Positions 1-24,533 of a DNA stretch of 32,644 nt are shown here, one piece after another. How positions within the stretch are numbered: position 1 is the first letter of the stretch; the number at the start of each line of letters is the position of its first letter. The notes under the pieces were generated by a model that searched no databases, was not told the DNA's origin, and was given only the letters and a program-made list of their open reading frames with translations. Both the position numbers and the translations under genes were made by a program. Origin of the DNA: a virus; the IMG/VR virus record IMGVR_UViG_3300046804_002616, positions 1 to 32,644 of that record. One strand, written 5' to 3'.

Positions 1-44
1 CCGCCTGTTTCAAAATCGAAAACGATGATGTCTTTACTAGCCAT
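1..44 (-). CDS. DnaQ-like 3'-5' exonuclease, N-terminus only (runs off window)
   Basis: Only the first 14 codons are visible. They read MASKDIIVFDFETGG when the partial last codon is completed. The run DFETGG is the first exonuclease motif (Exo I, DxE) of the DEDD family that includes the DnaQ epsilon proofreading subunit, and it sits at the right distance from the N-terminus. The ATG has a strong Shine-Dalgarno (AGGAG) eight bases upstream. The gene lies downstream of the polymerase III-type alpha fragment, which fits a proofreading or replication role. The other exonuclease motifs lie outside the window, so an RNase T-like or other DEDD enzyme is equally possible. Confidence 0.6.
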   Translation of the reverse strand, partial: MASKDIIVFDFETG

Positions 45-45
45 A

Positions 46-243
46 TTATTCTCCTGATTTAAGTCCTTGATAGTTAGTTATGAGTCTGCACATATCTATA
101 AACTCTTTTTGTTGCAAATCCCATTTTATTTGATTTACCTTTTTGTGAAGCCATTGGACATTTCCTTCAATATACCCCTTGCTACCATTCTCTTTAATAC
201 TGAATGTGTAATATCTTCTCGTTTCTTCATAGATAGCTCCTTG
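46..243 (-). pseudogene. HNH homing endonuclease remnant (C-terminal part)
   Basis: This 65-codon open frame has no usable start codon; a stop lies directly upstream and its first Met is at residue 51. It reads ...SKGYIEGNVQWLHKKVNQIK... and then KEFIDMCRLITNY. That is the familiar C-terminal signature of phage HNH endonucleases (SKGYxxGNxQWVHKxxNxMK...EFIxxC). The catalytic His-Asn region before it is missing or scrambled. A different frame starts at an ATG at 230 with a good ribosome site (AAGGAG) and makes 31 residues ending at 135, so a frameshift may separate an old start from the conserved tail. It lies between the truncated polymerase gene and the exonuclease gene. I read it as a dead free-standing or intron-borne homing endonuclease. 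Confidence 0.6.
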
Positions 244-257
244 TTAATTTTGACCTA

Positions 258-265
258 TCTATTTA
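258..265 (-). promoter_or_regulatory. Candidate T4-type late promoter (TATAAATA)
   Basis: The minus strand reads TATAAATA, an exact match to the T4 late promoter box recognised by gp55-type sigma factors. It lies just after the polymerase stop codon and about 28 bases upstream of the ATG at 230. A gp55-like sigma factor is encoded at 26564-27043. The genome is AT-rich and the same octamer also occurs by chance inside genes, so the match is suggestive only. Confidence 0.35.
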
Positions 266-277
266 TACGCGAAAAAG

Positions 278-1939
278 TCATTTTTCTTGGTTTTCTAGTA
301 ATTCGCGTATACGCATAACTTTATCAAGTAACGAAAGTCCGAGCAAATCAAATTTAACGTGTCCTAGAGCTTCAAGATCAGACATTTCTAGTCCAGCTAT
401 TTTTTCTTTGCCACTTTTTTGGTTTGCCATAGGGCAAACTTTATACAATTCTTCTGCTGAAATAACAACTCCAGCAGCATGTTTTCCTTGTGTTTTAAAC
501 GTTCCTTCCATGTCAATAGCTTGTTGAAAAAACTCGCTATAATCACCATGTAAATTACCATTTTCGTCTATGTGACAATAATCTCTTAGATCGTCTGCAT
601 TATTAATTAGTGCCCACTTAATAATTGACCTATCTTCGTCTTCCATTTCTGCTAATTGGTCTGAAATTGCTGCTTCGTCTGGAATATGTTTTGTGATTTC
701 GTTCATTTCGCTAAAACCACAAGCAGCATTAACTCTCAGCACTTCTTTGATAGCACTACGACCTTGTAATCTTCCAAATGTCAACATTTGGCTAACATTG
801 TTTGGTCCATATTTATCTCTTAAATATTCAATAATGCTATCACGTTTATTCGCTGGAACATCCATATCAACGTCTGGAAGTGATATATTACCCTCTGTGT
901 TCCTGCCCTCGTTATAAAACCTTTCAAATAAAAGATCAAATTCAATCGGGTCAATCTGTGTAACCCCAATCAAATAGGAAATCAAACAGCCCGCAGCACT
1001 TCCTCTGCCCGGTCCAGTTAGACATCCCTCTGACTGAACATGCTTGATTATATCTTGAACTATCAAGAAATATCCAAACAGATTTGCTTTTTTAATAACT
1101 TCAAATTCTTTATTGAATCTATCAAGATATTTTTTCTTTGATTCTTCATTGTCTATTTTATTTGTACCAATTAGTAAATTACGCCACCCAACACGGCATA
1201 ATTCTTTTAGATATTCTTCTTCTGATTCACCGTTGGGAGTTGGAAACCTTGGAAGCATTGGTTGTCTAAGAATATCATAATATTCGCACTTGTTATATAT
1301 TTCACCCAAAGCTTCGCAACCCTCAGTATCATTAATAATAATTTCAGAAGATTGTTCGGCATTTGGAACAAAAAACGAGTCATATTCAAAAAACTGCTGG
1401 TTTTCAATAGACTTTCCAGATTTAATTGCTGTATTAACTTTTGGCAAAGTAGTTTTCATAGCAGAACACAACAAGATTCTATGAAGTACAGCATCTTTCT
1501 TTTCTACATAGTAAGTTTCTGAAAATGCCTCAGATTTTGGATATTTATAGTCATGATAAAAATCGTCACCTTTTATTGGGGATTTTGATTCATCTTTTGC
1601 TACGCAAATAAGATTTCCTCGGTTTGCAATCATAGTTACCGTAGAATTATTTACGTTTAACTCTGAATCTAGCGACGAAACAACTTCAATCAAGTCAAAC
1701 CATCCAGTTTTGTTCTTGGCAAACAAAGCAAAACCGTCAAATGAACAGCCAACAATTGGCTTGATTTCATTGTCAATGCACGCTTTATAAAAAGCCACAG
1801 TACCAGAAATGGTTTTATAATCAGCTATGCCACAAGCCGCATAGCCATTTATCTTGCATTTTTTTGCGAGTTCGTCTGGTTTAGAAAAACCTTTTTGTAG
1901 CGAATAATGAGTATAATTCAATAATGGAAAATACTTCAT
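278..1939 (-). CDS. DNA polymerase III alpha (DnaE-like), truncated after the palm
   Basis: This is a family C replicative polymerase fragment of 553 aa (bacterial DnaE is about 1,100-1,200 aa). Residues 1-70 resemble the PHP domain, but its metal motifs are eroded (YTH where HxH is usual, ADY where TDH is usual). The palm is complete: GPGRGSAAG at 309-317, PDVDMD with the two catalytic aspartates D358 and D360, and the third in KFDLLGL (D531). The protein then ends at QEK, so the fingers, beta-clamp-binding and OB regions are absent. A TTG four codons upstream is possible, but the ATG at 1939 has GAGGAA in front of it and matches the family start better. Downstream lie an HNH remnant and a DnaQ-like exonuclease. 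The remaining half may be encoded beyond the window as a second subunit or exon. Confidence 0.85.
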   Translation of the reverse strand: MKYFPLLNYTHYSLQKGFSKPDELAKKCKINGYAACGIADYKTISGTVAFYKACIDNEIKPIVGCSFDGFALFAKNKTGWFDLIEVVSSLDSELNVNNSTVTMIANRGNLICVAKDESKSPIKGDDFYHDYKYPKSEAFSETYYVEKKDAVLHRILLCSAMKTTLPKVNTAIKSGKSIENQQFFEYDSFFVPNAEQSSEIIINDTEGCEALGEIYNKCEYYDILRQPMLPRFPTPNGESEEEYLKELCRVGWRNLLIGTNKIDNEESKKKYLDRFNKEFEVIKKANLFGYFLIVQDIIKHVQSEGCLTGPGRGSAAGCLISYLIGVTQIDPIEFDLLFERFYNEGRNTEGNISLPDVDMDVPANKRDSIIEYLRDKYGPNNVSQMLTFGRLQGRSAIKEVLRVNAACGFSEMNEITKHIPDEAAISDQLAEMEDEDRSIIKWALINNADDLRDYCHIDENGNLHGDYSEFFQQAIDMEGTFKTQGKHAAGVVISAEELYKVCPMANQKSGKEKIAGLEMSDLEALGHVKFDLLGLSLLDKVMRIRELLENQEK

Positions 1940-1968
1940 ATAGTTCCTCAATATGAAAAATCAAAAAT

Positions 1969-2097: not shown

Positions 2098-3327
2098 TCA
2101 AATCAATTCCTTGATAGCAGTTCCACCGTTTGCAATTTTCATGGGTCTACCATTTTTAGCGGTGTAACTTTTGTTCATATCCATACCAAGAGCCGAGCAA
2201 ACTGTTGCAACCAAATCTTCTGCTTGATAAGCTTTTCCATCTTTGATTGATTTTCCGTTTTCAGATGTTGAACCAATGGCTTGACCACCATTGATTAGAC
2301 CGCCAGACATAAATGCACTCCAAGTTGCTGCCCAGTGATCTCTTCCTGAATTTTGATTGATTCTGGGTGTTCTGCCAAATTCTCCCATCATCATAATAGC
2401 AACGTTATCCCAAAGATTAACACGCTTTAGATCAAGAATCAATGTTGATACAACCTTGTCTAGTTCTGGAAGCTTGGTGGACAAAGTTTCATGTGTGTCT
2501 TGGTGTAAATCCCAGCCACCAAAACCAATTTCCACAAATGGAACTCCAACCTGAACCAAACGACGCGCCATTAGGGCACTTCTTCCAAATCCAGTTGGTC
2601 CATAAGCAGCTAAAATTTCTGGGGATTCTTTTTCAAGCTTTGTAGCATCCATTTGCAGGCTTGTATTTAACTTGAGAGTTCTTTCATACAGCTTTTTGTG
2701 TTCTGTGGGTATTTCTCCTCGATTGGTTTTAATAAACTGATCTTCAATCAATCCCAGCATGTCTAGCTTGCTTCTAGACAGATTTGCACCAAGGTTTTGA
2801 ACATTTCCATTAGAATCTAAAACAAATGGGTCGTAAGCAGCACCAAGAAATCCTCCGCCAATACTTCCAGTGTTTATAGAAAAGAATGGGGGAATTTCTA
2901 AGTCTTCTCTTTTTGATCCAATTTCATAAGAAACCACAGAACCTAAAGAGGGGTGCATTATAGTTGGGCTTGGAATAAACCCTGTATGAAGATAATAATC
3001 TCCACGCATATGATCTCCCTCTCGCGTAGACATTGTTCTAACAACTGAGAAGTCTTTTCCAAGCTTGGCTAACTCAGGCATATATTCACTAATCTGAAAG
3101 TCTCCAGCAGTGTTTATAGGCTTGTGCGGACCACCTTCTTCGGTTCCCGGCTTTAAATCCCACATATCTATAGTTGGGGGGCCACCGCCTAGCCAAATAA
3201 GAATTGCGGCTTTTTGGTCTTTACGAAGTTTTAATGAATTTTGAATAATATCCTGACCAAAAGCATATGATGTAGATGCTAGAGCGGTAAGCCCACCAAC
3301 ATGTTGTAGAAAGTGTCGTCTGTCCAT
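2098..3327 (-). CDS. DUF1501 family exported protein, copy 1
   Basis: This 409-aa protein starts MDRRHFLQHVGG..., a twin-arginine (Tat) signal with a hydrophobic stretch and likely cleavage near SYAFGQ. DUF1501 proteins resemble the alkaline phosphatase/sulfatase superfamily and are abundant in Planctomycetota; their substrates are not established. Family hallmarks seen are LIWLGGGPPTIDMWDLKP near residue 45, GGWDLHQDTH in the second half, and GEFGRTPRINQNSGRDHW, whose Asp, His and Arg residues are probable metal or anion ligands. Length and motif order look complete. It is the last gene before the hairpin element and follows a ferritin-like gene by 12 bases. Base composition matches the neighbours, so it does not look freshly acquired. 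A second DUF1501 gene is at 5014-6285. Location: exported, inferred from the signal. Confidence 0.85.
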   Translation of the reverse strand: MDRRHFLQHVGGLTALASTSYAFGQDIIQNSLKLRKDQKAAILIWLGGGPPTIDMWDLKPGTEEGGPHKPINTAGDFQISEYMPELAKLGKDFSVVRTMSTREGDHMRGDYYLHTGFIPSPTIMHPSLGSVVSYEIGSKREDLEIPPFFSINTGSIGGGFLGAAYDPFVLDSNGNVQNLGANLSRSKLDMLGLIEDQFIKTNRGEIPTEHKKLYERTLKLNTSLQMDATKLEKESPEILAAYGPTGFGRSALMARRLVQVGVPFVEIGFGGWDLHQDTHETLSTKLPELDKVVSTLILDLKRVNLWDNVAIMMMGEFGRTPRINQNSGRDHWAATWSAFMSGGLINGGQAIGSTSENGKSIKDGKAYQAEDLVATVCSALGMDMNKSYTAKNGRPMKIANGGTAIKELI

Positions 3328-5013: not shown

Positions 5014-6285
5014 TTAAATAATAATTTCTTCGATGACCTTACCAAAGTCTACTATTTCAATAGGACGTTCGCCCGGAGCCATAAGCTCTTTGTCGGCATT
5101 TATTCCCAATTGATGGTAAATTGTTGTGGCCCAATGTGGAATTTCAACTGGGTTTTCATCTGGCTCTGAACAAGTTGCGTTTGACGAACCATATGTAATA
5201 CCAGCTTTAATTCCGCCTCCAGCCAGTATTGAACTAAATACTCGCGGCCAGTGATCTCTGCCAGCAGTTCCGTTTATTTTTGGAGTTCTACCAAATTCAG
5301 AAACCACACAAACCAATGTTGAATTTAACAAACCTTTCTCAGATAAATCTTCGATAAGCGCTGAAAACCCCTGATCAAACGCTGGCATTTGACCATTAAT
5401 ACCATTTGCGATATTATCGTGCATATCCCAGCCGCCATAAGTTAATGTAATAAATCTAGCTCCAGCTTCAGCTAGTCTACGGGCTAGGAGCATCCTTGCT
5501 CCCGCCGTATTTCTTCCATATTTGTCTCTTGTTTCTGGAGATTCTTGATCTAGCTTAAATGCTTCTTGAGCATGTGTACTTGCAATTAAATCATAAGCTT
5601 TTTCATAGAAAGAATTCATAGCTTTAACAGAATCATCTTTATTTTTCTGTAAAAACTTTTTATTCACACTCTCAAGAATATTTTGTCTTTGTCTAAATCT
5701 ATCATAATCAAGGTTGTTTGTCAAGTCCCTGACTTTGAAATTTTGATCAGCAGGATCAGAACCAAGGCTAAATCCAGCAAAAGAATTGCTTAAATAACCA
5801 GTTCCAGCAAATTCATTTGGTTGATTTGGAATACAAATATACGGAGGAATACTGCTTCGTGATCCAAACTCATGAGAAACAACAGCGCCAATAGAGGGGT
5901 ATTGAATCGCTGGACTTGGACGATATCCAGTAAAAACATTGTGCGCTCCGCGTTCGTGAGCAGCTTCTCCGTGTGTCATACTACGAATTATAGTTAACTT
6001 ATCTGTAACTTTAGCTGTTTTAACCAGTTTTTCGTTAAGTAGTATTCCTTCAACCTTTGTCTGAATACTGTTCATTGGCCCACGGTATTCAATAGGAGAA
6101 AGGGGTTTTGGATCAAAACTCTCTTGAGCCGCAATTCCTCCCGGCAAATAAATAAATATGACGCTTTTTGCTGGCCCCTCAGAACTTTTATAATTCTTAA
6201 TTTCTCCAAACGCTGAATTTACACCAATTGCCCCAAGGGCTGTGGCTTGTATAAAACTTCTTCTGCCAATATAAGCGTCAAACAT
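5014..6285 (-). CDS. DUF1501 family exported protein, copy 2
   Basis: This 423-aa protein starts MFDAYIGRRSFIQATALGAI, a Tat-type signal with cleavage likely after NSAFG. Family motifs are VIFIYLPGGIAAQESFDPKP near residue 45, HGEAAHERGAHN, GGWDMHDNI, and SEFGRTPKINGTAGRDHWPR. These align in order with copy 1 (2098-3327), but the sequences are well diverged, so this is an old duplication or two separate gains. The metal/anion-site residues of the phosphatase-like fold appear kept in both. The ATG lies one base after the stop of the 61-aa membrane protein (GGGATTTAAAATG), which implies translational coupling. The substrate is unknown; an exported hydrolase acting on host envelope or sulfated polymers is a guess. 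Confidence 0.85.
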   Translation of the reverse strand: MFDAYIGRRSFIQATALGAIGVNSAFGEIKNYKSSEGPAKSVIFIYLPGGIAAQESFDPKPLSPIEYRGPMNSIQTKVEGILLNEKLVKTAKVTDKLTIIRSMTHGEAAHERGAHNVFTGYRPSPAIQYPSIGAVVSHEFGSRSSIPPYICIPNQPNEFAGTGYLSNSFAGFSLGSDPADQNFKVRDLTNNLDYDRFRQRQNILESVNKKFLQKNKDDSVKAMNSFYEKAYDLIASTHAQEAFKLDQESPETRDKYGRNTAGARMLLARRLAEAGARFITLTYGGWDMHDNIANGINGQMPAFDQGFSALIEDLSEKGLLNSTLVCVVSEFGRTPKINGTAGRDHWPRVFSSILAGGGIKAGITYGSSNATCSEPDENPVEIPHWATTIYHQLGINADKELMAPGERPIEIVDFGKVIEEIII

Positions 6286-12155: not shown

Positions 12156-12616
12156 CTTCTCTTTCCTTTTTCTGTTAATACTTCTGCTTTTTTACGTACA
12201 TTATATTCTCTGCTCTTGATATTTTCAAGTCTGCCTTCTGCGGAAATCTTCCAGTCATTTATTCTAGAAACCAATTCATTGTTTCGCATTATAGTAGCAA
12301 CTTTAAATTCGTACTTATCATATTTATCCCAATGTTCATCCTGTATGCAGTGGGAGATTATCTTTTGTAGATTATTCTCGCACCATCTAACGACATTTTC
12401 ACATTTTGCCCGCTCTTTTGATAAGTGATCAATGTACTGATAAAGTTGAAAAGAATGATTAAAGCATTCATCTTGAGTCAACTTGTCTAACTGTTCAAGG
12501 GTAAAACTTTCAGAAATAGCAACCTGCTCGTTAATTTCATGTGGTACAATATTTTTTGACGTTATATATTCATCAATTCCATTTAAAAACGATTTTAGCT
12601 TTTCATCGGCATTCAA
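12152..12616 (-). CDS. Helical conserved phage protein, TTG start
   Basis: This 154-aa protein (from TTG at 12616) is mostly helical. Residues about 45-100 read TLEQLDKLTQDECFNHSFQL, then HLSKERAKCENVVRWCENNL. That matches a motif (LTxxEC...LxxYxxxLxxExxRxxxxxxWxE) shared by phage proteins found next to recombinases. The function is not established, though a UvsY-like recombination mediator is conceivable. The ORF could extend 7 codons to another TTG, but GGAGAC sits 6-8 bases before the 12616 TTG and no in-frame ATG exists before residue 108. The start overlaps the end of the nuclease-like gene. The C-terminus is basic. Confidence 0.55.
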   Translation of the reverse strand: MNADEKLKSFLNGIDEYITSKNIVPHEINEQVAISESFTLEQLDKLTQDECFNHSFQLYQYIDHLSKERAKCENVVRWCENNLQKIISHCIQDEHWDKYDKYEFKVATIMRNNELVSRINDWKISAEGRLENIKSREYNVRKKAEVLTEKGKRR

Positions 12617-13025
12617 TTTGTTGTCTCCATAAATCAATATTATCTGAATATTTTAATTCGATAAGATTGATATTATTTATTTCACACCATTCTAGTTTAA
12701 TTTTATCTCTACGTTTAGACATAGCAAATTCAGCTTTTGATTTATGAAAAAATGGAATATACTCGTAATGTTGCTGTCCATGAACTTCAACCCCAAGCAT
12801 AGCACTTGGTATCAAAAAGTCAAGAAATAAAACAGATTTTTTACTGGGAAATCTTGATCCGGGTAATTTTACTTCTTCGAGAACAGAATATCCACTAAAA
12901 ATTTCTCTCAAAAGATTTCTAGCAGCTATGTGATATTTTGATCTCTTCTTTGAATCATCTTCTCTAACAATATATTTACCCAGATCAAGAATATATTCCT
13001 TCTTGTTTAAACCTTTTACTTTCAT
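12603..13025 (-). CDS. Small PD-(D/E)XK-like endonuclease
   Basis: This 140-aa protein has FLDFLIPSAMLGVEVHGQQH, then FHKSKAEFAMSKRRDKIKLE, then WCEINNINLIELKY. The Asp, the Glu-x-His in VEVHGQQH and the later RRDKIKLEWC resemble the compact PDDEXK nucleases found in phages (DUF559/Vsr-like layout: acidic strand, ExK-like strand replaced by ExHGQQH, then xxDxxKxxWC). The role may be repair or recombination, given the adjacent recA. It overlaps recA's stop as ATGA and its own end overlaps the next gene. A Vsr-type mismatch nuclease is the main alternative. Confidence 0.6.
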   Translation of the reverse strand: MKVKGLNKKEYILDLGKYIVREDDSKKRSKYHIAARNLLREIFSGYSVLEEVKLPGSRFPSKKSVLFLDFLIPSAMLGVEVHGQQHYEYIPFFHKSKAEFAMSKRRDKIKLEWCEINNINLIELKYSDNIDLWRQQIECR

Positions 13026-15148
13026 TTTACAGATAGAATCTCTTTAACGTTGTCATAAAGAAGGTCTCTGAGTTTTTCATTCTTCTCAAGGAAATCTGAC
13101 AACTTTGACATACCTTGGAACTTAAACAGTTTTTCAACTGCTTCGTCGTCTGAAACCTCAACGTTGTTATCTTTTATAACCTTTAAGACAATTGGGTCTG
13201 TCTTGTTTTTAATCGCAAACTTAATAGTATACCAAGCTCCAGCTTTATCTATTAGTGAAAAATCAATTGCCGACTGAGCAACTTCTTTGGTTTCATCAAT
13301 TCCAATTCCATACCTAATCCAACTTTCAGTTGTTGTGTTTGGAATTCCACCAGCAGCAGAAGTTTTAATAATCCAGTTTGCTACTTGACCAATTTCTCTT
13401 TGGTCACTATCTGTTTCCCACTTTCCACGGTGGGTAATAACCATATTTGTCCCAGCTTGATACTGAACCATGTTTCCAGAGTCTGCCATCTTTGTTGGAC
13501 TCCATTTACTGCCGCCAGTATTAGCAATGTTATGCAAGATAAATATTACAATAGCTCTGTTTCTTGCAACATCTCCGCTAATACGTTTTAGAAACATGGA
13601 CATCAATCTTGGTAAAGCATTTCTAACGCCAGTTCTAATTTCTCCTTCGAGTTCCTCTTGCGGAACCATATTTGAGACAGAATCTACAATTCCAACAAAA
13701 TTTGGAGTTCCTTTAATATGCGCTTCTAATGCGTTTAAATACATTTCAGCAGACACAACCGGTGTTTTATCTGAAGGTTGAACAATCTTAATATTGTCAA
13801 TATCCAAGCCTTTAATACCTTTAAAGTTTTCCTTTGTTAGTCTACCTTCTGTATTAAAGTAATAAATTTTCTTTCCAACTTTTTGGGCTTTCGAAGCAAA
13901 GTAAAGTGCCGTTGTTGTATTGTGAGTAACATTAAAACTATCAGTTAAATAAAGATGATCTGGATGATCAATAAAAATACATTGGGTTTCTTCTTTTCTA
14001 ACAAGTTCAACTTTTCTTATAGTTTTAAATAATTCTGACTTTGTTTGTCTTGAACTAAATCTTTTACGATTAATTTTAAATAACTCATTAATATCGTTTC
14101 CAGATATACATAGCCTGAAAGACTTAAATTCTTTTCCGTTACGCTTAGTGGTTCTTTCTTTTGTTTTAACCATGTATCCAAGTGATCTTAGTAATTCTGA
14201 AACATGAATACTCAAACCGTACGAAACTGTGCTGTATTCTGCTGACTTACCTTTGTTATTGTAACCGTCAGTGTCCATCAATCCACGAATTAATTCAAAT
14301 CTATGATTTATAGATGAATAAAGATAGTGTTGTGGTATAAATTTTGAACTTGATTTTTTGCCCATAAGATTTAAAGTTCTTAACTTATTAGTTAAGTTAT
14401 TAACATTATTAGCGTGTCCAACTATAGAGTAGTCATATCTAGACTTGTGATGAATTTCTAAGCCATTGCTATTAGCGTAATTCTTAAAGGCTTGTAAAAT
14501 TTCATCGTCTGCTGTAGTGATAATAGGAGTTCCTTGTAACAGTCCTCCGTCTCCAATTAAACATCCTAGTATATACGGGTCTATTTCAAGGTTTTTTGCA
14601 TTAAAATAAACGGGTTTACACATAGGGATTTTCCACTTTGGTCTATCATTAGAAAATAAACCTTCTTCTATTATTTGACTCAATGGAAGAACTAACCATT
14701 CATCATTTCTTCCGTCATAATTTTTACAAACTTTCCATAGATGATCTATACCGCATTCAGCAAATGTCCCATCATTAAATGATACTTTGTAAACATCTTT
14801 TAATCCTTGTGGATAAATTCCTTTTACTTTTGCGATTCCGTCTGGAGTACAAACTAAATCTGCAATTTTTAACGAACCCATTTTAACTGGTCCGTCTGGA
14901 GTGTAAACCGTTGCAGACAAAGGTTGATCCTTACCAGTCTTAGGGTCGCCAGTCATAATTACGCAACTTCCCTCGCGCAATCCGCCCCCAAGCGCTATAT
15001 CTAGATTTGGAGAAATACCAATAACATTATAAGTTTCCAAATCTGCAAGTACCTTTGATCCTTCTTCAATGATATCTCCGTATTTTGAGCATATTTGATT
15101 GCTTACAATATCATCGTCGAATTTTTCACTCTTCTTTTTTGCCGCCAT
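13022..15148 (-). CDS. recA: RecA/UvsX-type recombinase with an in-frame intein
   Basis: This 708-aa precursor would give a 371-aa recombinase after removal of a 337-aa intein. The extein opens with a RecA core (GISPNLDIALGGGLREGSCV, then GDPKTGK at 67-73). It resumes at T411 (TTTALYFASKAQKVG), so the P-loop GDPKTGKTTT exists only in the spliced product. Later come FVGIVDSVSNMVP (Walker B region), ILHNIANTGG and SGNMVQYQAGTNM (L2-like loop). It catalyses strand exchange in phage recombination and repair. It sits in a cluster with the helicase, primase and nuclease-like genes. The next gene overlaps its stop (ATGA). Expression without splicing should yield no ATPase activity. Confidence 0.92.
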   Translation of the reverse strand: MAAKKKSEKFDDDIVSNQICSKYGDIIEEGSKVLADLETYNVIGISPNLDIALGGGLREGSCVIMTGDPKTGKDQPLSATVYTPDGPVKMGSLKIADLVCTPDGIAKVKGIYPQGLKDVYKVSFNDGTFAECGIDHLWKVCKNYDGRNDEWLVLPLSQIIEEGLFSNDRPKWKIPMCKPVYFNAKNLEIDPYILGCLIGDGGLLQGTPIITTADDEILQAFKNYANSNGLEIHHKSRYDYSIVGHANNVNNLTNKLRTLNLMGKKSSSKFIPQHYLYSSINHRFELIRGLMDTDGYNNKGKSAEYSTVSYGLSIHVSELLRSLGYMVKTKERTTKRNGKEFKSFRLCISGNDINELFKINRKRFSSRQTKSELFKTIRKVELVRKEETQCIFIDHPDHLYLTDSFNVTHNTTTALYFASKAQKVGKKIYYFNTEGRLTKENFKGIKGLDIDNIKIVQPSDKTPVVSAEMYLNALEAHIKGTPNFVGIVDSVSNMVPQEELEGEIRTGVRNALPRLMSMFLKRISGDVARNRAIVIFILHNIANTGGSKWSPTKMADSGNMVQYQAGTNMVITHRGKWETDSDQREIGQVANWIIKTSAAGGIPNTTTESWIRYGIGIDETKEVAQSAIDFSLIDKAGAWYTIKFAIKNKTDPIVLKVIKDNNVEVSDDEAVEKLFKFQGMSKLSDFLEKNEKLRDLLYDNVKEILSVK
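13919..14929 (-). other. Class 3 (WCT) intein with LAGLIDADG endonuclease, in RecA P-loop
   Basis: The intein spans residues 74-410 of the precursor. The left edge is set by restoring the Walker A motif, which makes the first residue Asp (DQPLSATVYTPDG) rather than Cys, Ser or Ala. The triplet that defines class 3 inteins is visible: Trp in block B (DHLW, W138), Cys in block F (QCIFID, C390) and Thr in block G (VTHN, T408). The +1 residue is Thr411 and the intein ends HN. In class 3 inteins the block F Cys makes the first acyl shift. Two dodecapeptide motifs, LGCLIGDGG (194-202) and RGLMDTDGY (288-296), both keep an acidic residue, so the homing endonuclease may be active. Confidence 0.85.
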
Positions 15149-21378: not shown

Positions 21379-22037
21379 TTTATCACCTGTTTTAATTTAC
21401 TCAGCATAGCATCTGAGTTGTAATACCCGGTATAAGTTTGTATTGGCGTACTGAGATTATCAGATTTGAACAGTAAAATTGTTGGATAATTCTTAACTTT
21501 AAAATAAGAAAAATATTTTTTGTATTCTTGGTTTTCTTCTTCGAACGTATAAAGTTTTATCTTTTCTTTGTCAAAAAAATTTTTAACATCTTCATTTTGC
21601 CAAGTGTTTTTCTTTAACAGTTGGCACGGTCCACACCAGTCTGCCCCAAGATGATAAATTACATATTTATATTTTTCAGAAACCTTGTCGCTAGTTTTTG
21701 CTTCAGGTTCTGATTGTTTAATAACTGGCTGTTCAACCTGTTGAATTTGTTCGGGTTCTTGTGTTTTTGTTTTTGAACAATTGCAAGTGCCCGGACATGG
21801 ACAAGGTGTTTTATGACCGTCTCCATGAATAATAACTTTGGTTCCACCGCATTCGCATTTTGATTCATTGTTTTTATTGTTTTGCTTGTTTTCTTCATTT
21901 ACCACAAAAGCTATATAACCTTCGTTTCTAACAGCATCAAACGCAAAAGCTTTTTTTGTTGTTGGAAATTGTATTTTGTCAATAGGAGCAGTAGATATTA
22001 AAAATATCGACAACACTATAAACGAGGATAATTTCAT
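21375..22037 (-). CDS. Secreted thioredoxin-like protein with Cys-rich motif
   Basis: This 220-aa protein has an N-terminal signal peptide (KLSSFIVLSIFLISTAP) and then a motif CECGGTKVIIHGDGHKTPCP followed by CPGTCNC, with six cysteines that could bind a metal. A Gln/Glu/Pro linker leads to a thioredoxin fold from about 125. The active site is WCGPC in HLGADWCGPCQLLK, then YPTILLFKSD with the cis-Pro. It would act outside the cytoplasm as a thiol oxidoreductase. The HGDGHKTPCPC pattern also occurs, in my memory, in other phage proteins. TAATG junction with the peptidase gene. Reduction of the extracytoplasmic peptidase or of host proteins is a guess. Confidence 0.7.
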   Translation of the reverse strand: MKLSSFIVLSIFLISTAPIDKIQFPTTKKAFAFDAVRNEGYIAFVVNEENKQNNKNNESKCECGGTKVIIHGDGHKTPCPCPGTCNCSKTKTQEPEQIQQVEQPVIKQSEPEAKTSDKVSEKYKYVIYHLGADWCGPCQLLKKNTWQNEDVKNFFDKEKIKLYTFEEENQEYKKYFSYFKVKNYPTILLFKSDNLSTPIQTYTGYYNSDAMLSKLKQVIK

Positions 22038-24088
22038 TATATAATCCTTGTGTTGATTGTTCTGGGTTTAAAACCTTCATAACCACTAAATGCCCAGCAG
22101 TCTCCAGTTTTAAGAATTCTTCGCTCAAGTTCTTCTGCGTCAACCCAAAACGATCCATCTGGTTGATCATTGCGCTTTGGTCCAGCTATCCAGTTTGCTC
22201 CCCAACTATTTTGTATCAATGCTCCGGGACGCTTGTATTCATCGTCTACGCCCAGAATACTCATTTGATGACCCCACGAGCCTTCTGGTTTAGAAAATCC
22301 CTCAGAATCTCTAAACTGTGAAAACCCTTGGTTGCTTGCAATAGTCACCGCGTAACCATTACAAATCAAGTCTCTTACTTCTTCATACGAATTAACTTGA
22401 GAAATAGTTATTACTGAGTGTTGTTTTTCTATTTCTAGAAATTCTGGAGGTAGTTGGTATCCTGCTTTTCCCCATGCCTTGGCTCTTTCGCCGCTATAGT
22501 TTGTTAGATCAACACCTCCGTATTTTCCTCTGGCTACACATCCGTATTGATTCACATATTTTGCAGCCCAAACACCAAGTGAGCCATCTTCGTTACCAAG
22601 TTGACCTTTTCCAATTATATTTCTGCTGCCCCAATAAATATCTTCTGTGGCACTTTCAGACACCCATTCTTCAAAATCCTTGTTGATATAAATATCGACA
22701 GCTTTAATGGCATCTACTGCATAAGCAGCGCCCATAGAAACACAGTTATGTATTCCATAACCATTACATATAAACGAGTGATCTTCTTCTACTCCTATAC
22801 AATATACATGATCAGTTTCTGGTTCAACTATTTCTATTTTAGATATTCTTGCCGCTCTACCATATTTTGTGATCTGTTTTTGATTTATTTTTATATCAAG
22901 AGATTCTTTGGTTAAAGTATCTAATCCACAAAATACATTAAGTGAAAACGATTCTTTGCTATGTTTATAAGCTTTTCTTTTTTGGATAGAACAGTTTATG
23001 TCGATAGAATTTGCTATTTGAAACATGTCATATATTAAATCTTCTGAAACAGAAACTCCTACTCTATTTTTCCACCCATCCCCGTCCATCCATCCAGATA
23101 AAATTTGGAGTTTGTTTTGTTTAGTAGTTATTAATAGACTTTTATCTAATTGTTTATTATAAACATTACCAGTGCATAATTTATTAAATAATGAACTAAT
23201 AATATGATTTTGAATTCTTACATATAATACTGATGGTTTTGATGGAACTGAAGATATAATAGCATCAAAATCAAAAATATCTTTTATGTAAGATTTTATT
23301 TTATTTGCCAATAACACTTCTTTGGACGATAAATTAAAAGTAATTCTTCCATTATCTATTCCTCCTTCTGCGGCGTATATACCAATTAACCAACAAAGCT
23401 TTTCATCTAAATTAATAAATCTATTTATTTCTTTAGAAGAACCTTTGCTTCTTATTTTTCCAGTAGATACTTTTGATGTTCTTAATTTTTTAAAGTCAGA
23501 TTTGTCAGTTATACATTCTGAATATAAGTCGTTTAGATCATACTTGTATTCATTTAGTGATGGGAGTTTTGGTAATAGGACATAATCTCCTTCGTTTAAA
23601 GCTGCTATAGCTTTCCATTCTATAGTTGACTTATCTCCTTTTTTACCTCTCCCGATATTTGGAAGATACATGTACAGGTGATCAGGGGTAGATTCTATTG
23701 GTTTTTTATAACCAGAAACATAAATTCTAACCATTTTTTTGTTATATGGCTTTTTTATAAAATCTATAACTTTTCTAGTGTTTCCATAAGGAGTTAATAC
23801 ATAGTCTCCTATTTTTATATCTTTTATCTGTTTTTCAGACCCGTCAAACATTCTAACCATAGAAGATGGATTTTGACAATCTCCAATTTTCTGGAGTCTT
23901 ATTGGAAAAGTTCCCGCTACTTTTCTAATGATGTCATACAAAAACATTTTTTTGTTTTTGCCAGAGTCTTTAAAGTCTGCTATTTCTTTATATATACTAG
24001 AAAATACAGGGATGGGAAGATCACCCATCGCTTTTTCTACAAGCGGCGGATCGTCAACCCATCCACATAGATGTGTATAATCATTCAT
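22037..24088 (-). CDS. Papain-like (C1) cysteine peptidase with an in-frame intein
   Basis: This 683-aa precursor yields about 305 aa after excision. The extein has LQKIGD before the junction, then CVSMGAAYAVDAI (nucleophile C449). Later it has GSWGHQMSILGVDDE (catalytic H607) and LIQNSWGANWI (N627), the Cys-His-Asn triad of papain enzymes. The Gln of the oxyanion hole is probably Q66. There is no signal peptide. Starts: an upstream TTG at 24115 is possible, but the ATG at 24088 has GAGG upstream and overlaps the previous gene's stop as ATGAATGA. Neighbours are small exported or membrane proteins. Roles in phage egress, tail or head maturation, or attack on host proteins are all open. Confidence 0.85.
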   Translation of the reverse strand: MNDYTHLCGWVDDPPLVEKAMGDLPIPVFSSIYKEIADFKDSGKNKKMFLYDIIRKVAGTFPIRLQKIGDCQNPSSMVRMFDGSEKQIKDIKIGDYVLTPYGNTRKVIDFIKKPYNKKMVRIYVSGYKKPIESTPDHLYMYLPNIGRGKKGDKSTIEWKAIAALNEGDYVLLPKLPSLNEYKYDLNDLYSECITDKSDFKKLRTSKVSTGKIRSKGSSKEINRFINLDEKLCWLIGIYAAEGGIDNGRITFNLSSKEVLLANKIKSYIKDIFDFDAIISSVPSKPSVLYVRIQNHIISSLFNKLCTGNVYNKQLDKSLLITTKQNKLQILSGWMDGDGWKNRVGVSVSEDLIYDMFQIANSIDINCSIQKRKAYKHSKESFSLNVFCGLDTLTKESLDIKINQKQITKYGRAARISKIEIVEPETDHVYCIGVEEDHSFICNGYGIHNCVSMGAAYAVDAIKAVDIYINKDFEEWVSESATEDIYWGSRNIIGKGQLGNEDGSLGVWAAKYVNQYGCVARGKYGGVDLTNYSGERAKAWGKAGYQLPPEFLEIEKQHSVITISQVNSYEEVRDLICNGYAVTIASNQGFSQFRDSEGFSKPEGSWGHQMSILGVDDEYKRPGALIQNSWGANWIAGPKRNDQPDGSFWVDAEELERRILKTGDCWAFSGYEGFKPRTINTRII
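22745..23878 (-). other. Class 1 intein with LAGLIDADG endonuclease, before the catalytic Cys
   Basis: The intein covers residues 71-448 (378 aa). It begins with Cys71 (CQNPSSMVRMFDGSEKQI), has a block B of the usual type (STPDHLYMY, T134 and H137), and ends GYGIHN with penultimate His447 and Asn448. The +1 residue is Cys449, which is also the peptidase nucleophile. The endonuclease domain has LIGIYAAEGGI (234-244) and LSGWMDGDGW (330-339), two LAGLIDADG motifs. The first reads AAEGG, with Glu in place of Asp, as in several active enzymes. It differs from the class 3 intein in recA both at the termini and in block B. Confidence 0.9.
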
Positions 24089-24533
24089 ATTTAGTTGCCT
24101 CTGATAAATCTTCAAAGATTTTAGCGAATGCTTTTCTTTCAGATTGAGTTTTTAATTCCTTTGGTTTGTCGTAACCAACGGATATAAGATATTCAGAAAC
24201 TCTGTCTGTGAATTTTGGATACTTTTCTCTGCTCCATCCGTAAGATGTTTGAACTTTTTGTAAAATTGGATCAAACTGAGAAGTAGTTCCAATAAAAACT
24301 GAATTATTTAAATATTCAGCAGAGCCAGAAAAAAGCTTGTGAATAACAAGTTTATCTTCTTTAGATTTAATGTTAGAAAATTCCTGTGCTACCTTTTTGA
24401 TAGAGTCAGAATTGACTACATTGTTTATTGGTGTAGTATCTTTAATTGGTGTTTGAACTTTTACATCGCGACCAAAAGCTAAATACAAACACAGACACAA
24501 AATTATTGTGATACAAAAATTATGTTTGTGCAT
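24081..24533 (-). CDS. Signal-peptide/membrane-anchored hypothetical protein
   Basis: This 150-aa protein opens MHKHNFCITIILCLCLYLAF, a signal peptide or N-terminal membrane anchor with three Cys. Then come a Thr/Asn linker and a helical domain (VAQEFSNIKSKEDKLVIHKL, then SQFDPILQKVQTSYGWSREK and KFTDRVSEYLISVGYD). No family is recognised. It overlaps the upstream membrane protein by 14 bases and the peptidase start by 8 bases. The context (peptidase, holin-like, PAS) suggests an envelope role. Confidence 0.55.
   Translation of the reverse strand: MHKHNFCITIILCLCLYLAFGRDVKVQTPIKDTTPINNVVNSDSIKKVAQEFSNIKSKEDKLVIHKLFSGSAEYLNNSVFIGTTSQFDPILQKVQTSYGWSREKYPKFTDRVSEYLISVGYDKPKELKTQSERKAFAKIFEDLSEATKYE

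Follow-up and report, generated by a model that had tools for sequence, protein, structure and literature searches.

Class 3 inteins in phage P-loop ATPases, inteins at the Lys|Thr position of Walker A, and P-loop inteins in RecA-family proteins such as RadA are all known. The RadA inteins of Pyrococcus horikoshii and Thermococcus sibiricus are class 1, as are the RecA inteins of Mycobacterium tuberculosis and M. leprae, which occupy other sites of bacterial RecA. Class 3 itself is defined by the WCT signature, that is, Trp at B:12, Cys at F:4 and Thr at G:5 (PMC3196547; PMC5050341), and the class 3 splicing pathway has been established by others (PMC4031507; PMC7664689; PMC7891396).

The locus described here lies in a linear 32.6-kb virus record from IMG/VR, and we refer to the whole stretch analysed (32,644 nucleotides) as the window. 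We hold with high confidence that a full-length class 3 intein with a LAGLIDADG homing endonuclease sits in the Walker A motif of a phage RecA/UvsX recombinase, where it would splice and home as proposed below. Phage and mycobacterial class 3 inteins of DnaB and TerL share with it the WCT triad, a non-nucleophilic position 1, a LAGLIDADG domain and detectable homology, and those of TerL also separate the Lys of Walker A from its Thr (TerL1-a site, PMC5050341), but the host in the window is a RecA/UvsX recombinase. The RadA inteins likewise interrupt the P-loop of a RecA-superfamily recombinase (PMC5790916); however, they are mini-inteins without an endonuclease in an archaeal RadA host. The M. 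tuberculosis and M. leprae elements resemble this one in lying within RecA, and the M. tuberculosis RecA intein (3ifj) gave a weak Foldseek match to our intein model (E=0.013). Matches to the intein in INPHARED were mainly annotated as helicases and terminases, with one PhoH-like host. The latter belongs to Vibrio phage 1.161.O (MG592529), and its intein is the closest relative in the isolate-phage collection (39.8% identity over 100% of the intein), also at K|T of Walker A, but it differs in its host, in having Ala1, and in being annotated as hedgehog/hint rather than class 3.

The recombinase gene and the borders of the intein

The features of the locus are as follows.

13022..15148, minus strand: RecA/UvsX-type recombinase precursor with intein, 708 aa (from the ORF and from Pfam and PDB matches)
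14930..15148, minus strand: N-extein, 73 aa, ending in GDPKTGK, the first part of Walker A (from empty relatives)
13919..14929, minus strand: 337-aa class 3 intein (residues 74-410 of the precursor), including a LAGLIDADG endonuclease
14735..14752, minus strand: block B, GIDHLW, with His136 (B:10) and Trp138 (B:12); D-H-L-W invariant in 18 relatives
14543..14569, minus strand: LAGLIDADG motif 1, LGCLIGDGG, at residues 194-202 of the precursor; Gly-Asp conserved in RecA-hosted inteins other than L116 and L117
14264..14293, minus strand: LAGLIDADG motif 2, LIRGLMDTDG, at residues 286-295 of the precursor; G-L-x-D-x-D-G the same in all 18 relatives
13979..13981, minus strand: Cys390, block F:4, proposed initiating nucleophile; invariant in 18 relatives
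13919..13930, minus strand: end of block G, VTHN, with Thr408 (G:5), His409 (G:6) and Asn410 (G:7); T-H-N invariant in 18 relatives
13022..13918, minus strand: C-extein, 298 aa plus stop (Pfam RecA on the C-extein alone)
12603-13025, minus strand: nuclease-like ORF, PHROG homing endonuclease/HNH, overlapping the recA stop codon

The ORF at 13022-15148 was uninterrupted over its whole length, and the intein divided its Walker A motif, GDPKTGK|TTT, between Lys73 and Thr411. The C-extein began with TTTALYFA, which supplies the +1 Thr and the remainder of Walker A, followed by the RecA core and C-terminal part. The empty site could be read directly in intein-free homologues as GDPKTGK-TTTALYFA: L013, L015 and L018 ran uninterrupted across it as GDPKTGK-TTTALY, and L016 as GDPKTGK-TVSSLHFA. 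The borders therefore do not come from motif reading alone. A preliminary description of this DNA had placed an intein at 13919-14929 within Walker A; the intein-free homologues fixed those borders exactly to the base. The residues it had named (Asp at position 1, which is D74, and W138, C390 and T408) and its 371-aa joined length were likewise all as claimed, and H409, N410 and T411 at +1 were in place as well.

When the flanks were joined in silico, the resulting 371-aa protein had Walker A within a RecA core, and its ATPase domain was homologous to the RecA family. Pfam RecA was matched both by the C-extein alone (residues 411-708, E=1.2e-14) and by the joined flanks (E=1.7e-21), and the best PDB matches of the spliced form were all RecA. 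PHROG classed the host protein as UvsX-like, and because it scores below the cut-off of the NCBIfam equivalog for bacterial RecA, we regard it as a divergent phage RecA/UvsX and not a bacterial RecA. The top PHROG matches to the whole precursor were families of terminases and helicase loaders in which homologous inteins occur, an example of how family-based annotation would misread precursors of this type.

We considered whether the nuclease-like ORF at 12603-13025 was part of the intein and rejected this, as the ORF lies directly downstream of recA whether the allele is occupied or empty. More than 100 loci, some with the intein and some lacking it, have this ORF beside recA, so that it looks more like a core gene of the phage than a selfish insert.

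Class 3 residues and predicted fold

In our alignment of 18 P-loop inteins, whose hosts are recA and several further ATPase genes, the WCT triad (W138, C390 and T408) was present without exception, as were H136, H409 and N410. Position 1 of the intein is Asp74, with no Cys or Ser nucleophile there, and the His-Asn of block G is followed by Thr411 at +1 (Ser in L115 and L158). The earlier assignment to class 3 with a RecA/UvsX host holds, and none of the 18 aligned inteins had the Cys or Ser at position 1 that would have spoken against it. The preliminary description had also thought Asp1 rare, and this was not borne out: nearly all aligned P-loop class 3 inteins have Asp or Glu at position 1, the exceptions among the relatives being Ala once and Gln once. 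We therefore rejected Asp1 as the mark of an unusual subgroup, Asp/Glu being the norm.

The AlphaFold model of the intein (mean pLDDT 93, pTM 0.91) predicted a HINT fold. Foldseek matched the model to PI-SceI and VMA inteins over the splicing and endonuclease domains, and to the class 3 DnaB inteins of M. smegmatis and M. chimaera (6bs8, 6rix, 6riy) over the splicing domain. In a PDB sequence search the best matches were gp41-1 with a grafted, engineered WCT (6riz) and PI-SceI, and the class 3 DnaB inteins were found as well.

The endonuclease domain

Two LAGLIDADG motifs with acidic residues are present, and the Pfam families LAGLIDADG_3 (E=3e-7) and Hom_end (E=4e-7) both scored above the cut-off. 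With the intein alone as query, 554 phage records were matched; this breadth and the two Pfam matches exclude chance resemblance. Exceptions to the Gly-Asp of the first motif were L116 and L117, which read GNG, so the endonuclease may be inactive in some of the RecA-hosted copies. One further copy, L114 (also recorded as L012 and L023; contig IMGVR_UViG_3300046804_002810), is 94% identical to the intein of the window and 8 bases shorter, with a frameshift inside the endonuclease that would cut the recombinase off ahead of the C-extein. Possible causes are a fault in the assembly or decay of the allele.

Other elements in the window and its relatives

A second intein of 378 aa was observed at 22745-23878 inside a papain-like protein (22037-24115, minus strand). 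It has the form Cys1...HN|Cys with LAGLIDADG-like motifs and is of class 1 type. At the junction, QKIGD|CVSMGAAYAVDA, the +1 Cys of the intein appears to be the catalytic Cys of the protease; the spliced protein matched Peptidase_C1 weakly, below the Pfam cut-off (E=0.0017). Relatives L139-L141 carried an intein at the same Cys, and L138 and L142-L152 were empty.

At 278-1951 (minus strand), DNA polymerase III alpha appears as two genes flanking an exonuclease gene: the N-part (PHP and palm, 557 aa in the window), an RNase_T/DnaQ-like exonuclease, and the C-part from the finger domain. This split layout is common to L291 and L293. In L290 the N-part is 100% identical and the C-part has an apparent intein start, FNK|CLDPETVVYTPSGP. 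Near 4080-4106 in L294, which is on the same contig as L114, about 290 bases with a stop codon interrupt the N-part after ...SDGRN; this interruption matched no Rfam family. At the window edge, in a different frame from the polymerase N-part immediately upstream, positions 1-280 (minus strand) encode an HNH-like tail, GYIEGNVQWLHKKVNQIKWDLQQKEFIDMCRLI, which, judged by eye, is likely a remnant or the end of a homing endonuclease. Two similar proteins are encoded close together at 2098-3327 and 5014-6285 (both minus strand; the second was compared by eye), and the product of 2098-3327 gave a strong match to DUF1501 (E=4e-88), which was unexpected among phage replication genes.

Distribution among recA alleles

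The idea that a RecA/UvsX host is rare or unique fell away once we had found 11 distinct intact RecA-hosted alleles: the window, L102, L103, L105, L110, L111, L112, L115, L116, L117 and L158. As to the accompanying suggestion that it is new, a search of the open-access literature turned up no report of RecA/UvsX as host to a class 3 intein, and the combination seems undescribed. RecA/UvsX may thus be a new host; the relevant section of a census of 1701 class 3 inteins gives no host list (PMC7891396).

The 80 closest recA relatives, gathered with the C-extein as query, were mostly empty and intact in the P-loop (75), with four holding an intact intein and one the frameshifted copy. A scan of the whole collection for GDPK[TS]GK[DE]QP returned 16 contigs besides the window, and three further intein-bearing contigs with GQPKSGK fell outside this pattern. 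The matching empty motif gave at least 120 matches, so the intein is a minority allele. Among isolate phages, tblastn with the spliced RecA returned 220 records, none at 60% identity or above, and no insertion in RecA was apparent among the 60 of these 220 matches listed. A scan of bacterial genomes for RecA-hosted copies yielded only two empty recA loci, on SAR202 MAG contigs, and one Streptomyces locus. The two SAR202 loci, L135 and L136, are intein-free relatives of the phage recA with the same downstream nuclease gene, on contigs binned as a SAR202 (Chloroflexota) genome; these contigs are probably phage, and the binning is a weak hint at host range.

The window and L105 were 82.5% identical in the intein but only 45% identical in the host protein. 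At the DNA level identity was 81% within the intein and about 55% in the flanks, changing stepwise at the borders. L105 joined the window group in the intein tree with support of 100/100, and in the extein (RecA) tree its recA formed a long, deep branch. Because the RecA tree has long branches and carries a warning to that effect, our argument for transfer leans on the identity contrast only. On the extein tree the presence and absence of the intein required six changes, and two occupied alleles were paired with empty ones, L112 with L016 and L111 with L040. The intein tree placed 8 of 10 RecA-hosted inteins in one clade (99/98), with L116 and L117 apart; a single clade of all RecA-hosted inteins had a p-AU of 0.44. 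Comparison of the window with L102, L103 and L105 gave dN/dS of 0.085-0.136, with the endonuclease part constrained as strongly as the splicing part, which shows at the codon level that both domains are under purifying selection. Horizontal movement between divergent recA genes with the endonuclease maintained is the simplest reading of these patterns, and the element of the window is a mobile and apparently active homing intein.

Proposed splicing and homing

By analogy with described class 3 inteins, we propose that Cys390 would attack the Lys73-Asp74 peptide bond to form the block F branched thioester, and that the N-extein would then pass to the hydroxyl of Thr411 at +1. Cyclisation of Asn410 and an O-to-N acyl shift would yield the 371-aa recombinase with GDPKTGKTTT restored and would free the 337-aa protein, the putative endonuclease. 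This predicted endonuclease would target the conserved P-loop codons of empty recA alleles, and repair of the cut by recombination would copy the intein in, possibly with the very recombinase that it interrupts. Since the Lys and Thr of Walker A are 337 residues apart in the precursor, the unspliced protein should not bind ATP normally, and we can soundly infer from the sequence that the unspliced recombinase would be inactive and its activity dependent on splicing.

Alternative explanations

Could the element be a class 1 or class 2 intein, one that starts splicing at residue 1 or by direct +1 attack on the N-terminal splice bond? The HINT fold is common to inteins, and the His-Asn of block G is as in class 1, but the absence of Cys or Ser at position 1 throughout the alignment and the invariant Cys F:4, Trp B:12 and Thr G:5 make such a mis-assignment very improbable. 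The class 2 inteins that have been described carry Ala at position 1, Ser at G:6 and Cys at +1 (PMC4031507), where the window intein has Asp, His and Thr. We give just as little credence to a decayed, splicing-dead intein, in which case recA would be a pseudogene and a different gene would provide recombination. Such dead class 3 inteins exist, as in Arth_1007 of Arthrobacter (PMC3196547), and the close relative L114 is frameshifted; however, the catalytic residues of the window intein are all intact, its ORF is open throughout, dN/dS is about 0.1, the recA core and C-terminus are conserved, and syntenic neighbours are kept in more than 100 loci.

The intein might instead serve as a regulator that is kept for the benefit of the phage and not by homing, holding the recombinase inactive until a cue such as ssDNA, redox state or a metal. 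Conditional splicing has been reported for the P-loop intein of the RecA-family protein RadA (PMC5790916), mycobacterial DnaB inteins are reported to respond to oxidation and zinc (PMC6195587; PMC7360933), and the catalytic nucleophile of the window intein is a single Cys. If regulation were important, retention along lineages would be expected, and the patchy presence (4 intact and 1 frameshifted of 80) counts against it; this patchiness, the near-identical inteins in unrelated recA alleles and the conserved endonuclease fit selfish homing instead, leaving regulation unlikely. We are correspondingly doubtful that this is the first class 3 intein family in RecA/UvsX with conditional splicing in response to ssDNA or redox state. 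If it were, the element would control the recombinase and at the same time need it for its own homing.

Significance

A class 3 homing intein in the recombinase therefore remains our preferred reading. The pairs L112/L016 and L111/L040, with the pair at 82% against 45% identity, provide natural material in which homing between diverged recA alleles could be studied. Inteins home through recombinational repair (by RecA or UvsX in the T4 system, PMC2988022), so the element may depend on the very protein that it interrupts. The locus would add RecA/UvsX, the enzyme expected to perform the repair behind intein homing, to the hosts of class 3 inteins.
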